Positions 39,868 to 59,507 of a stretch of DNA of 64,000 bases are shown here, one piece after another. Numbering within the stretch: the stretch's first letter is position 1; the number at the start of each line of letters is the position of its first letter. This stretch comes from Terriglobia bacterium (GTDB lineage: Bacteria; Acidobacteriota; Terriglobia; Terriglobales; Acidobacteriaceae): contig JAIQGE010000012.1 of the NCBI GenBank assembly GCA_020072815.1, positions 248,001 to 312,000 of the forward strand. The letters run 5' to 3'. A program made the position numbers and the translations under genes. The notes under the pieces are model-generated. The model had not been told where the DNA came from. It searched no databases and worked only from the letters and a program-made list of their open reading frames with translations.

Positions 39868-39941
39868 TTGCCCTTTGATCGCTCGCCAGCTAAACTCACC
39901 TGTTTTATCGAATCCCGTCTAATTCTTCCGTGGAGTTAAGA

Positions 39942-41519
39942 ATGATGCTACAGCGTGCCCTGACTTTGTCCTTCTCCGTCCTACTGCTGTTTGCTCTTAG
40001 CGCAACCGCCCAGCAACGTAACCGTGAAGGCCGGCCTCCGGGCTCGGCGCCGGCGGCCAGCCCGGCAGCCGACCAAGCCGCCAAACCTGCGGCCGAAGCC
40101 AAGAAAGAACCGGCCGAGCAGCCTCCCGTGGTCACTCACCATGAAATCCACGTTGGCGGCAAGACGCTGCATTACACCGCCACAGCCGGCATGATGCCAC
40201 TGAAGAACACTGACACCGGCGAGGTGGAAGCCAACGTCTTCTACATGGCTTACACCATGGACGGCCAGCAAGCCGAGCGTCGCCCGCTCACGTTCTCATT
40301 CAACGGCGGCCCCGGCTCGGCATCCGTGTGGCTGCACCTCGGGGCCATCGGCCCCAAGCGTGTGAAGATGCAGGCTGACGGCATGATGCCCGCGCCTCCT
40401 TACCAACTGGTGGACAACGAGCATACCTGGCTCGACCAGACTGACTTGGTGTTCATTGATCCCGTGGGCACGGGATACAGCCGCGCCGTCAAGCGCGACC
40501 AAACGCGCAAATTCCTGGGCCTGCGCGGCGACATCGAGTCCGTGGGCGAATTCATCCGCCTGTATCTGGGACGCAACGAGCGCTGGGCGTCGCCGCTGTT
40601 TATGGTCGGCGAAAGTTACGGCACCACGCGCGCCGCCGGGCTCTCCGGATATCTGGTGGAACACGGCATCGCCTTCAACGGCATCATGCTGATCTCCAGC
40701 ATCCTGAACTTTGAGACCACAGACGGCGCTCCCGGCAACGATCTGCCTTACGTCCTTTTCCTGCCGACTTTTGCCACCACCGCCTGGTACCACAAGAAAC
40801 TTGGTCCCGACATGCAGGACTTCAACAAACTGCGCGCTGACGTGGAAGACTGGGCGCTCAATGGCTACGCCGACGCTCTGGCCAAAGGCGACCGGCTCAC
40901 CCCGCAGGAACGCAGCGCCGTCGCCGACCGGCTGGCCAAGTTCACCGGATTGAGCAAGTCCTACGTCGAGAACAGTGATCTGCGCGTGGACGAGCCGCAC
41001 TTTGTAAAAGAACTGCTGCGCGACCAGCGCAAGACCGTGGGCCGCCTGGACAGCCGCTTCACCGGCAGCGACCGCTCGGGCATCGCCGAGACCGCGGGGT
41101 TCGATCCCAGCATGAGCGCCATCCGTCCGCCGTACACCGCCATGTTCAACCAGTACGTGCGCACTGAGCTCGGCTACAAGTCAGACCTGGAGTATTACAT
41201 CCTGGGCGGAGGCTTCCGCTTTGACGAGTGGGACTGGGGCGTCCAGCGCGGCGGCTTCCCTGACACGGCGCGCGCCCTAAAAGACGCTTTCGACAAGAAC
41301 CCTTACATGAAGCTGTTCATCGGCTCGGGATATTACGATCTGGCCACGCCCTATTACGCCACGCAATACACCATCAACCACATGGGCCTGGACAACGCGC
41401 AGCACTCGCGCATCACCCTGGGCTACTACGGCGCCGGCCACATGATGTACATCCAGGACAGCTCGCTGGGTGAGTTGAAGAATGACGTGGGGAGGTTCAT
41501 TGCGAACGCGCTGAAGTAA
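39942..41519 (+). CDS. Exported serine carboxypeptidase-like protein (peptidase S10)
   Basis: About 525 residues. A signal peptide (about 1-24) is followed by an Ala/Pro/Lys-rich linker (about 25-60) and the S10 fold. The oxyanion segment is FSFNGGPGSASVWLHLGA, the nucleophile lies in MVGESYGTTR, the catalytic Asp in GYYDLATPYYATQY and the catalytic His in GYYGAGHMMY. It should act outside the cytoplasmic membrane as an acid carboxypeptidase. ATG 39942 has GGAG at a suitable distance; GTG 39930 is the alternative. It stands alone. Confidence 0.88.
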   Translation: MMLQRALTLSFSVLLLFALSATAQQRNREGRPPGSAPAASPAADQAAKPAAEAKKEPAEQPPVVTHHEIHVGGKTLHYTATAGMMPLKNTDTGEVEANVFYMAYTMDGQQAERRPLTFSFNGGPGSASVWLHLGAIGPKRVKMQADGMMPAPPYQLVDNEHTWLDQTDLVFIDPVGTGYSRAVKRDQTRKFLGLRGDIESVGEFIRLYLGRNERWASPLFMVGESYGTTRAAGLSGYLVEHGIAFNGIMLISSILNFETTDGAPGNDLPYVLFLPTFATTAWYHKKLGPDMQDFNKLRADVEDWALNGYADALAKGDRLTPQERSAVADRLAKFTGLSKSYVENSDLRVDEPHFVKELLRDQRKTVGRLDSRFTGSDRSGIAETAGFDPSMSAIRPPYTAMFNQYVRTELGYKSDLEYYILGGGFRFDEWDWGVQRGGFPDTARALKDAFDKNPYMKLFIGSGYYDLATPYYATQYTINHMGLDNAQHSRITLGYYGAGHMMYIQDSSLGELKNDVGRFIANALK

Positions 41520-41520
41520 G

Positions 41521-41585
41521 GCAATCGCCGTAATCGCACGGAATCGCGCGTGATCGCCGTGATCGCGCGTAATCGCCGTGATCGG
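41521..41585. repeat. Short-unit repeat, left of the four-helix gene
   Basis: Alternating ATCGCCGT and ATCGCGCG units over 65 bp. Positions 41552-41585 are inversely repeated at 42011-42044 with two or three differences. A related stretch is at 59351-59395. Confidence 0.8.
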
Positions 41586-41605
41586 GGCTCAGACAACGGG
41601 AGCGA

Positions 41606-41962
41606 ATGAACTCAGAAAAGCATCAGGAGTTAAGAACGCGAACCAAGGCCTTTGCTCTGCGCGTGATTCGCATGTCTCAAGCCCTGCCCCGAAGCCGCGA
41701 GGCAAACGTAATCCTTCAGCAAGTTCTTAGATCTGCAACTGGCATGGCGGCCAACTATCGCGCCGCTGGTCGATCAAGGTCAAAGGCTGAGTTCATCGCG
41801 AAGATCGGTGTTGTTGTGGAAGAGGCAGATGAAACCGTGTTTTGGCTTGAGATGCTCGGAGATAGCGGTATTGTGCGTCCTGTGAAATTGCAAAGTTTGC
41901 TCACTGAGGCAACTCAGCTCGTAGCAATCTTCACTGCATCCCGGAAAACCGCCAGAACTTGA
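41606..41962 (+). CDS. Four-helix-bundle protein (23S rRNA intervening-sequence protein family)
   Basis: A 118-residue, all-helical protein. TRTKAFALRVIRMSQALPRS, then QQVLRSATGMAANYRAAGRS, RSKAEFIAKIGVVVEEADET and VFWLEMLGDSGIV are the conserved parts of the family first seen in 23S rRNA intervening sequences. Such genes are also widespread as stand-alone chromosomal genes of unknown function. GGGAG precedes the ATG. It is enclosed by inverted copies of the ATCGCCGT repeat, which suggests a small mobile unit. Confidence 0.85.
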   Translation: MNSEKHQELRTRTKAFALRVIRMSQALPRSREANVILQQVLRSATGMAANYRAAGRSRSKAEFIAKIGVVVEEADETVFWLEMLGDSGIVRPVKLQSLLTEATQLVAIFTASRKTART

Positions 41963-42006
41963 GGGGCGAGAGCGGCTGGAAAAGACACTTGGCTTCTTTT
42001 CCGATT

Positions 42007-42044
42007 CCGCGCGATTACGGCGATTTCGCGCGATCACGGCGATC
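42007..42044. repeat. Short-unit repeat, right of the four-helix gene
   Basis: Inverse copy of 41552-41585. It ends one base before the stop codon of the M24 peptidase gene at 42045. Confidence 0.8.
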
Positions 42045-43343
42045 CTAAGAGCTTTTCCCAAACGGCTCTTCCAAACTCGGACTTTGCGGCGTGAACAACT
42101 CCGCACCGTTCTCCGTGATGTGCATGTCGTCTTCCAGGCGGACGCCGAATTCCCCGCGAATGTAAATCCCCGGCTCGTCGCTGAAGCACATGCGCGGCGC
42201 GAGCGGCAAAGTGTTGCCGCGAACCAGGTACGGCCACTCGTGGCCGTCCATGCCGATGCCGTGGCCCACGCGGTGGCCAAAATGTTTGTAGTCGGGGCCG
42301 AAGCCGGCGTCGTCAATCACCTTGCGTGCCGCGGCATCCACGGCCTGGCACTGCACGCCGGGTTTGGCGGCGGCCAGCGCGGCGGACTGCGCGCGATGCA
42401 CGATCTCAAAGACCTTCTTCATCTTGTCCGTCGGTTTGCCCAGTACGACCGTGCGGCTGATGTCAGAGTCATAGCCTTCCACGTTGCAGCCGCCGTCCAT
42501 CAGCAGAATGGTGCCTTCGCGGATGACCTGCGGCTTGGCCGAGCCGTGCGGTAACGCGGAAGACTCCGCCACTTGGACCCCGGCCCCGCCCTGGAAGCCC
42601 TGCTGCGCGTGCGCCGCCGAGACCATCTGCGCGAAGTCCCGCTGCGTCATGCCTTCTTTGGTGGAAAGGTACGCGGCTTCATAGGCGGCCAGTGTGACCT
42701 GGTTGGCCAGGGTCATCAGTTGCAGCTCGTGGTCGCTCTTGATCATGCGGCAGCCGGCGGTGACCGGAGTGGCGCTCAGGATCTGCGCCGCTGGCGCGGC
42801 CTTGCCCACACCCGAACTGAAAACGTAATGGACCGTCTCTTCCATGCCGATCTTTCCGGCGGCGATGCCGCGTTCCTTCATGCCGTCGGCTATGCGCTGG
42901 TAAGGGCTTTCATCTTCCTGCCATATGCGGACGTCGGCTTTGGAGTCGCCCATGCCCATGACGATCTGTTCGCGCGCGCGGTCCTCTTCAAACGCCGGGC
43001 AAACGTAAAACGGATTGCCCTTCGCCGGCACGATCATCGCGAACAACCGCTCGCTCAGCCACCAGCGGATGCCGGTGAAGTACACCAGGCTCGTTCCGCC
43101 GATCATCATGATGGCGTCAAGTTTGCTCTCCGCCATCAAACGCCGCGCGCGTTCCAGGCGTTGCTGGCGTTCTTCAATCGTGATGGGCTTGGCTTCGTCC
43201 TTGCGCGACTTCAGTTTGGCGATGGGCTGGGGCACAAATTTGGACGGGCCCTCCTGCTCGGCGAAGAGCGCTCCCCGTGGGACAAGCGCGGCAGACGTGG
43301 CAATTCCGGCATTCTGCAGAAAACGGCGGCGAGAAGAGTTCAT
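42045..43343 (-). CDS. M24 metallopeptidase (Xaa-Pro aminopeptidase-like), Tat-exported
   Basis: About 432 residues. The N-terminus MNSSRRRFLQNAGIATSAAL is a twin-arginine signal. The creatinase-like N-terminal domain is followed by the pita-bread fold with metal ligands in LMDGGCNVEGYDSDISRT, GHRVGHGIGMDGHE, FSDEPGIYI and GVRLEDDMHI. It should cleave N-terminal residues before proline, and needs folding before export. AAGGAG lies 5 nt before ATG 43343; an upstream in-frame extension to 43505 runs through a repeat and is rejected. It sits downstream of the M28 peptidase on the same strand, with a palindromic repeat between. Confidence 0.88.
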   Translation of the reverse strand: MNSSRRRFLQNAGIATSAALVPRGALFAEQEGPSKFVPQPIAKLKSRKDEAKPITIEERQQRLERARRLMAESKLDAIMMIGGTSLVYFTGIRWWLSERLFAMIVPAKGNPFYVCPAFEEDRAREQIVMGMGDSKADVRIWQEDESPYQRIADGMKERGIAAGKIGMEETVHYVFSSGVGKAAPAAQILSATPVTAGCRMIKSDHELQLMTLANQVTLAAYEAAYLSTKEGMTQRDFAQMVSAAHAQQGFQGGAGVQVAESSALPHGSAKPQVIREGTILLMDGGCNVEGYDSDISRTVVLGKPTDKMKKVFEIVHRAQSAALAAAKPGVQCQAVDAAARKVIDDAGFGPDYKHFGHRVGHGIGMDGHEWPYLVRGNTLPLAPRMCFSDEPGIYIRGEFGVRLEDDMHITENGAELFTPQSPSLEEPFGKSS

Positions 43344-43403
43344 TGGGGCTCCTTGGAGGAATGGATAGAGTAACACCGCTGAGATTGGTGATCGAAAATG
43401 CCA

Positions 43404-43595
43404 AACCCAAAACCTTGAAACACAGAGGAACGGAGGAAGCGGAGGATTTTGGGAATTGTCAGGATTGCCGAATTGCCAAGATTGCCAAGATTGCCAAAAC
43501 TGCAATCAGCCGCTACCCAGCTTTGGCAACTACCGATTCTTCGTCCCTCATTCCTCCGTGTCCTCCTTTCCTCCGTGTTTCAAAGATTTTGGGTT
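43404..43595. repeat. Palindromic repeat element between two peptidase genes
   Basis: Arms of about 36 bp (43404-43440 and 43558-43595) are imperfect inverse copies built on AAACACGGAGGAA-like units. The centre holds tandem ATTGCCAAG units. It resembles the elements at 47280 and 49178. Confidence 0.75.
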
Positions 43596-59350: not shown

Positions 59351-59395
59351 AGATCGCCGGAATCGCCGTCATCGCGCGACATCGCCGGGATCGGA
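59351..59395. repeat. ATCGCCGG/ATCGCGCG repeat
   Basis: Same unit family as the repeats at 41521 and 42007, here without a gene between. A weaker ATTGCCAAG-like stretch follows at about 59465-59510. Confidence 0.7.
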
Positions 59396-59507
59396 AAGAC
59401 ATTCCTACTTCAAATCAACTGCAGATGCCAAGTCGCCAAAACTCAAGCAAAATCTAATTTCAAATTTCGGCGATCTTGGCAATCTTTGGCAATTCCGGCG
59501 ATCTTTC

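Follow-up and report, generated by a model that had tools for sequence, protein, structure and literature searches.

Why should a lone gene of 118 codons lie between two inverse copies of a repeat? The question is raised by one locus in a stretch of 64,000 nucleotides (the window, analysed here at its full length) from contig JAIQGE010000012.1 of a Terriglobia bacterium, in which a four-helix-bundle gene is the sole gene enclosed by a pair of inverted arms (the feature coordinates are collected in the table below). The arms, 41552-41584 and 42012-42044, are 33 nt long with 94% complementarity, and there is a second, outer inverted pair, 41523-41546 with 42002-42025 (24 nt, 96%). The first-pass annotation of the window had described this bracketing of a single gene by inverse copies, and it is confirmed, save that the inner ends of the arms had been placed one base off. 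Arms were scored by comparing the left flank with the reverse-complemented right flank, 220 bp each, with a threshold of 12; the window element scores 28.0, while among 312 random gene-size intervals from the same loci only 7 score 12 or more, so its arms are not a matter of chance. The answer offered here is that the element probably belongs to a large class of small mobile hairpin elements, whose protein would act on the arrays of short units in the arms, in cis and in trans.

Inverted arms are the rule for the genes of this family, with repeat letters that differ between elements. The genome of the window (G000, 5.29 Mb) was compared with 40 relatives (41 genomes in all); a profile search finds the family in 31 of the 41, with 101 match rows, and merging three genes that were split over two rows and leaving out six fragment rows gives 92 places for examination. 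Arms at or above the threshold enclose 82 of these 92 genes. The corresponding counts are 5/92 for the direct orientation, 40/736 for swapped flanks, 7/312 for the random intervals already mentioned, and 15/433 for ordinary open reading frames (ORFs) in unselected stretches (5/130 for those under 200 codons). G000 itself holds seven TIGR02436 genes: a repeat finder gives inverted arms round six, and alignment brings out weaker ones (score 14.0) round L002, the seventh. The units are ATCGCCGT (two genes), TCAGCACTCAGCA, CTAGCTCCTGGC, ATTGCCAAA, ATCGGGTC and GGTAATTT. That most family genes are so built, with repeat letters that differ, had gone unnoticed in the first-pass annotation.

Scanning species genomes with an alignment of clade A of the family (the clades are defined below) yielded at least 582 relatives, the best 80 of which were used, and a search of viral sequences, made with an alignment of clade B, added five loci; of these 85 loci (L200 and L210 come from a genome of the first set, and L240 and L241 have the same arms), 73 score 12 or more, against 24/680 for swapped flanks and 22/85 for the direct orientation. 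Sorted by record title, inverted arms occur at 20/21 acidobacterial loci, at 4/5 viral contigs and at 49/59 others (Proteobacteria, Planctomycetota, Bacteroidota, Chloroflexota, Nitrospirota, Bacillota, candidate phyla and more); the only cyanobacterial locus, L191, with a left flank of just 124 bp, scores 9.0. Plasmids gave 24 matches, from which six loci were taken for scoring: four of the six have inverted arms scoring 16 or more, and in three (L277, L279, L280) the direct score exceeds the inverted one. (A side note on these three loci, L279 and L280 being from cyanobacterial plasmids: by annotation, they include four-helix genes between or beside CRISPR genes (cas1, cas2, csx2) and between the DISARM gene drmD and a restriction gene. 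Separately, the flanking repeats of L044 (G031:C31) and L205 are long and direct, not inverted, with scores of 80 and 67.5.)

Gene and arms are one unit, present or absent together at a site. Two genes of the congener G001, each on its own contig, align at 77% identity over 483 bp (L134 1901-2369 and L135 1945-2426), and there is no further match between L134 and L135 at E 1e-10. The arms of the two copies lie at 1901-1927 and 2341-2367 of L134 and at 1940-1969 and 2397-2426 of L135, and the homology ends 0-5 nt from the outer arm ends, that is, it takes in gene and arms only. A second line of evidence comes from the nuo operon (NuoD, NuoE and NuoF having been assigned by NCBIfam). At the nuoD/nuoE junction G000 and G005 have a bare overlapping stop/start, TAATG; G001, G002, G003 and G004 have an armed four-helix gene between the TAG stop and the ATG, in the sense of the operon; G025 has an AGTGGCT hairpin without a gene (AGTGGCT also flanks the G025 gene L041); G026 and G027 have neither gene nor hairpin, and G006 gave no match. 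These filled and empty sites, along with the G001 copies, uphold the suggestion of a very small mobile unit that had been made from the window alone. (One nuo operon, at L111 / L317 (G004:C47), contains two four-helix elements with differing units: ATTGCCA at nuoE/nuoF, AATTT-rich at nuoD/nuoE.)

The window's own site does not offer a clean comparison of empty with filled, there being other inserts in G005 and G006 and other sequence beside the neighbouring S10 gene in G001 and G003. G004 and G007 retain gene and arms, and G005 has neither; in G002 (L101, G002:C363) the arms are conserved and the four-helix gene is inverted between them; G006 has kept the arms, together with foreign sequence and what by eye appears to be a gene remnant; the site is rearranged in G001, G003 and G008, the last of which has a lone array and a different gene beside the M24 gene. 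In none of these relatives does the gene stand at this site without the repeats: the three congeners that retain it, G002, G004 and G007, keep both. Some sites are hot spots: where G000 has L005, hairpins built from different unit families occur in G004 and G005, and G001 has additional repeats. For the four orthologous window elements, the comparison does not support concerted evolution of left and right arm: right arms of different species are at least as alike (22-40) as the two arms of a single element (15-33).

What kind of protein does the enclosed gene encode? It belongs to the family also named S23, S23p or IVP, matching PF05635 (E 3.8e-12, 46.8 bits against a cut-off of 33.8) and TIGR02436, 'four helix bundle protein' (E 2.1e-19, 69.7 bits against a cut-off of 24), in agreement with its first-pass description. 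The AF2 model of the window protein has four helices (pLDDT 95.7), with 2RLD as its best PDB match. The solved relatives by sequence, 2RLD and 2GSC, have five chains each, and the fold matches found with Foldseek are 2RLD, 2GSC and, at a weak E of 0.03, Avd (4DWL), TM 0.69-0.75. The 2GSC protein is described as a toroidal homopentamer (PMC4990558). The ratio of nonsynonymous to synonymous change (dN/dS) is 0.03 and 0.04 in the two pairs of window orthologues with unsaturated synonymous change (the remaining eight pairs are saturated, with pN/pS of 0.10-0.20); judging by these substitutions, the gene is under purifying selection and works as a protein.

The period of the repeats goes with the protein. 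A protein tree (by a quick method, with few columns and long branches that meet, and to be read with caution) splits the family in two with an SH-aLRT of 99; clades were called from a protein motif only, N[ILM]AE for clade A and [AG]ANY for clade B, to which the window protein belongs. In clade A the period is 7 in 46 of 49 armed genes (8 in two, weak in one); in clade B it is 8-10 in 24 of 31 (7 in six, weak in one); the two of the 82 armed genes that match neither motif both have period 7. Within the clades, after 184 of 3321 pairs with outer-flank similarity had been dropped, the similarity of two units can be predicted from that of their proteins (rho 0.28, 1115 pairs, and rho 0.34, 357 pairs; 0 of 999 permutations reach either value). 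The number of units per arm is nearly constant, with medians of 4.4, 4.5, 3.8 and 4.3 for periods 7, 8, 9 and alternating 9/10 (108, 36, 4 and 12 arms, respectively), and arm length consequently increases with the period. A loose letter preference exists beside the period: on the inward-reading strand, AG exceeds CT in 49 of 80 elements and CT exceeds AG in 18. The first-pass annotation had called the unit non-autonomous. That is doubtful: a gene so strongly conserved, from whose clade the repeat period can be predicted, is more likely to be the element's own factor, and the better candidates for non-autonomous copies are the hairpins without a gene.

Such gene-less arrays accompany the gene in the genomes sampled. 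One of them is in the window, where a related repeat at 59351 had already been recorded; it is there, and is moreover an inverted pair, 59351-59367 matching 59488-59504 at 16 of 17 nt. The pattern ATCGCCGTNATCGC, at one mismatch or fewer, has 256 matches in G000 against two for the reversed pattern; the repeat is thus dispersed, and mostly without a gene. Arrays were counted in 20-kb stretches placed blind, as a lag match of at least 70% over 35 bp. Eight gene-bearing genomes (600 kb) gave 20 arrays of period 7 and four of period 8, in seven of the eight; nine gene-free genomes (480 kb) gave none of either. Periods 6, 9 and 12, which are expected from coding sequence, gave 2, 2 and 6 arrays in the gene-bearing against 2, 3 and 4 in the gene-free genomes; with the threshold at 63%, periods 7 and 8 stand at 33 and 6 against 2 and 1. 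Looser criteria gave 72 arrays in the window and the gene-bearing stretches together; for 38 of them an inverted partner lies no more than 450 bp off, in most cases at under 80 nt (far control 4/72; a single hairpin can contribute two arrays, one per arm). The unit CAGCAYTCAGCAYTCAGC, with one mismatch, has 609 partly overlapping matches in 17 of the 31 gene-bearing genomes and a single match, in one of ten, among the gene-free relatives (Fisher p 0.025); in a phylum draw of 119 genomes it is matched in 11 of 57 with the gene and 1 of 62 without (p 0.0015). Gene-less arrays (65, from five genomes) are also closer to the arms of their own genome than to those of others (mean 11.2 vs 8.3, Wilcoxon p 6e-5, the partner arms not being independent). 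(Heptamer hairpins are unusually dense in 20 kb of G014 (L266, G014:C23:50001-70000), several with arm gaps below 20 nt.)

How might such an element work? The four-helix gene would occupy a hairpin loop, with the inverted arrays, each of about 4-5 short units, as the arms of the stem; the predicted RNA fold of the window element pairs the arms and leaves the ORF in the loop (z -2.9), that of the nuo element being weaker (z -1.5). The letters of the units drift, but unit length goes with the clade of the protein (7 bp in A, and in B mostly 8-10 bp). A ring is proposed because there are about 4-5 units per array at each period and because the period tracks the clade: a pentamer would bind an array, as single strand or hairpin and as RNA or DNA, with near one unit per protomer, and would act as a chaperone while host enzymes, which would provide the chemistry, copy the hairpin into new sites, most of them intergenic. 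The protein may also act in trans on hairpins without a gene, and that would be why these outnumber the gene-bearing ones. A bolder form of the proposal can be put forward tentatively: that the four-helix ring is at once reader of the period and maker of the repeats, one unit per protomer setting the unit length of the clade and the 4-5-unit arrays while leaving most letters free. It might then be a cause so far missing for the heptanucleotide repeats, which are reported to be the commonest of the long simple repeats of many bacteria. The intervening sequences (IVSs) of 23S rRNA, the free-standing elements and the gene-less heptamer hairpins might be one family.

A number of observations weigh against the favoured account. 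Pfam and NCBIfam show no catalytic (nuclease or polymerase) domain in the window protein. Recent activity is unproven, and movement itself has not been observed: the best copy pair compared has 77% identity, near-identical copies were not seen, and target-site duplication is unreadable, the nuoD/nuoE junctions being too diverged. Ten of the 92 genes are under the arm threshold and six of the 31 clade-B genes have period 7; the clades, furthermore, are a single deep split, and the cases behind the period rule are therefore not many independent events. As for the arrays, 280 of the 480 array-free kb come from a single genus, 6 of the 11 matching gene-bearers in the phylum draw have just 1-5 CAGCAYTCAGCAYTCAGC matches (at ten or more matches the comparison is 5/57 vs 0/62, p 0.02), and only 18 of the 65 gene-less arrays exceed 95% of other-genome draws. 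The pattern ATCGCCG fails to separate carriers from non-carriers outside the genus, for it has matches in all 41 genomes, non-carriers too (13-76 outside the genus, 122 in G039; reversed control 0-17). G008 has 162 ATCGCCG matches, yet the unit of the single four-helix gene found there is 7 bp long; the matching gene may have been lost, or missed in an assembly that is 89% complete, or another protein may serve. G011, G012 and G022 are rich in CAGCAYTC arrays, a unit present in none of their genes examined.

Is the gene, then, a mere passenger that has entered the loops of hairpins made by something else, as IVSs enter rRNA helices? The predominance of gene-less arrays, the G025 hairpin at nuoD/nuoE and the reversal of the G002 gene between its arms at the window's site would all fit, but a passenger leaves unexplained why the repeat period tracks the protein clade, why gene and arms appear jointly in congeners where G000 and G005 have neither, why the G001 copies have arms as well as gene in common, and why the gene-free genomes sampled lack arrays; we consider it unlikely. 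A poorer candidate still is that slippage during replication, or else palindrome correction, formed the arms where they stand, around a host gene that tolerates the stem or uses it for its own regulation. Polymerase slippage has been proposed before for heptamers (cited in PMC4679880), and the window arms are predicted to pair in RNA; against this stand the orientation of the arms (inverted in 82/92, direct in 5/92), the dispersed gene-less copies, the differing sites in relatives, and the weak fold of the second element. Least probable, and as an obligate need largely refuted, is movement of the units in trans by an enzyme encoded elsewhere in the genome, be it a RAYT (a Y1 transposase) or a reverse transcriptase (RT): Y1_Tnp matches do occur in 34/41 genomes and PF05635 does resemble Avd, the accessory protein of diversity-generating retroelements (DGRs), but G025 (98% complete) and G031 (96%) carry the gene with no Y1_Tnp match, ten gene-bearing genomes at least 90% complete have no RVT_1 match (G003, G009, G012, G013, G016, G018, G019, G025, G039 and G040; G000 has one, on another contig, C28), and the only RAYT-like gene looked at has non-periodic flanks of its own. 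(That gene, L272 9750-10191 (G009:C3), is a RAYT-like Y1 transposase gene bracketed by long inverted sequences, neither of them a period-7 array; it is a separate REP-type system within G009.)

The account of a mobile hairpin with its own four-helix factor can be set beside systems already known. The Coxiella 23S rRNA IVS has tandem heptamers (three, in some strains two) right before the S23p ORF and is excised by RNase III, and older ideas make IVSs remnants of transposition or mobile elements (all in PMC4990558); in the accessible text of that paper the heptamers are neither generalised nor tied to the protein. The window element likewise has a family protein within a stem (here a predicted one), but it lies between two protein genes, outside the 23S rRNA gene, and positions 41300-42200 have no Rfam match at E up to 1. 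RAYT genes, too, are small and stand between short inverted repeats, further copies of which, the repetitive extragenic palindromes (REPs) and REPINs, are dispersed without the gene. The likeness extends to the gene-less palindromes (38/72 partnered); the difference is that the bracketed gene here matches PF05635 only, which is unrelated and has no Y1 domain, and that the repeats have a period, not a sequence, in common. With the Avd of DGRs there is similarity of fold (4DWL), and of 27 proteins of the family 5 match bAvd as well, but the carriers here need no RT; the avd gene of BPP-1, the one control, has inverted flanks scoring 11.0, just below 12, and direct template/variable repeats scoring 79.0. 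Insertion sequences and miniature inverted-repeat transposable elements differ in having a single conserved terminal inverted repeat, whereas the arms here vary in sequence among elements of one genome. Bacterial heptameric repeats, of which the short tandemly repeated repetitive (STRR) sequences of cyanobacteria are a further example, resemble these arrays in being of period 7 and mainly intergenic. Those described include GGGAATC in Xanthomonas (about 70-75 sites per genome, in convergent pairs; PMC4692102), GGGGA(C/T)T in Nostoc and TAACTGA in Beggiatoaceae; heptamers are over-represented in bacteria, which is ascribed to slippage or left open, and the accessible text of both papers has no mention of 'helix bundle' or 'S23' (PMC4679880, PMC4692102). 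The separate parts are thus known; their coupling, a family gene with period-locked repeats, was not found among the open-licence PMC papers searched (papers elsewhere may hold it). Since each known kind tested fails a defining feature, the class is probably new in kind, yet one that works like REP/RAYT and probably includes the IVSs; on a stricter reading it could belong to the IVS kind.

The neighbours of the window gene are an S10 serine-carboxypeptidase-like gene and an M24 metallopeptidase gene, mutually convergent (assigned with Pfam). The longest reading of the latter begins within an ATTGCCA array (WQSWQSWQF); its relatives align only from residues 37-58 onward, and the true start therefore probably lies deeper within the reading.

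Table. Features of the window discussed in the text, in window coordinates
Feature	Position	Strand
S10 serine-carboxypeptidase-like gene	39930-41519	
Left inverted array, units ATCGCCGTN / ATCGCGCGN, 9 and 10 bp alternating	41523-41585	+
Four-helix-bundle gene, TIGR02436/PF05635, clade B, 118 codons	41606-41962	+
Right inverted array, units of the left array on the opposite strand	42002-42044	-
M24 metallopeptidase ORF, longest reading	42045-43505	-
ATTGCCA-type 9-bp array; unit family enclosing another four-helix gene of G000 (L003)	43455-43495	+
Left arm of gene-less inverted pair, unit family as in the window element	59351-59396	+
Right arm of gene-less pair, ATCGCCGG / ATTGCCAA units mixed; best-pairing part 59488-59504	59466-59504	-

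What would follow from all this? Three loose ends would be tied together: the widespread S23p/IVP family, structurally solved (2GSC, 2RLD) and of unknown function; the IVSs that occur sporadically in 23S rRNA; and the abundance of heptamers in bacteria, for which there is no explanation. An element defined by its period and not by its sequence would, if true, be a new principle, and one that sequence-based surveys of repeats would tend to miss. Such elements may help to explain why short repeats litter bacterial genomes.
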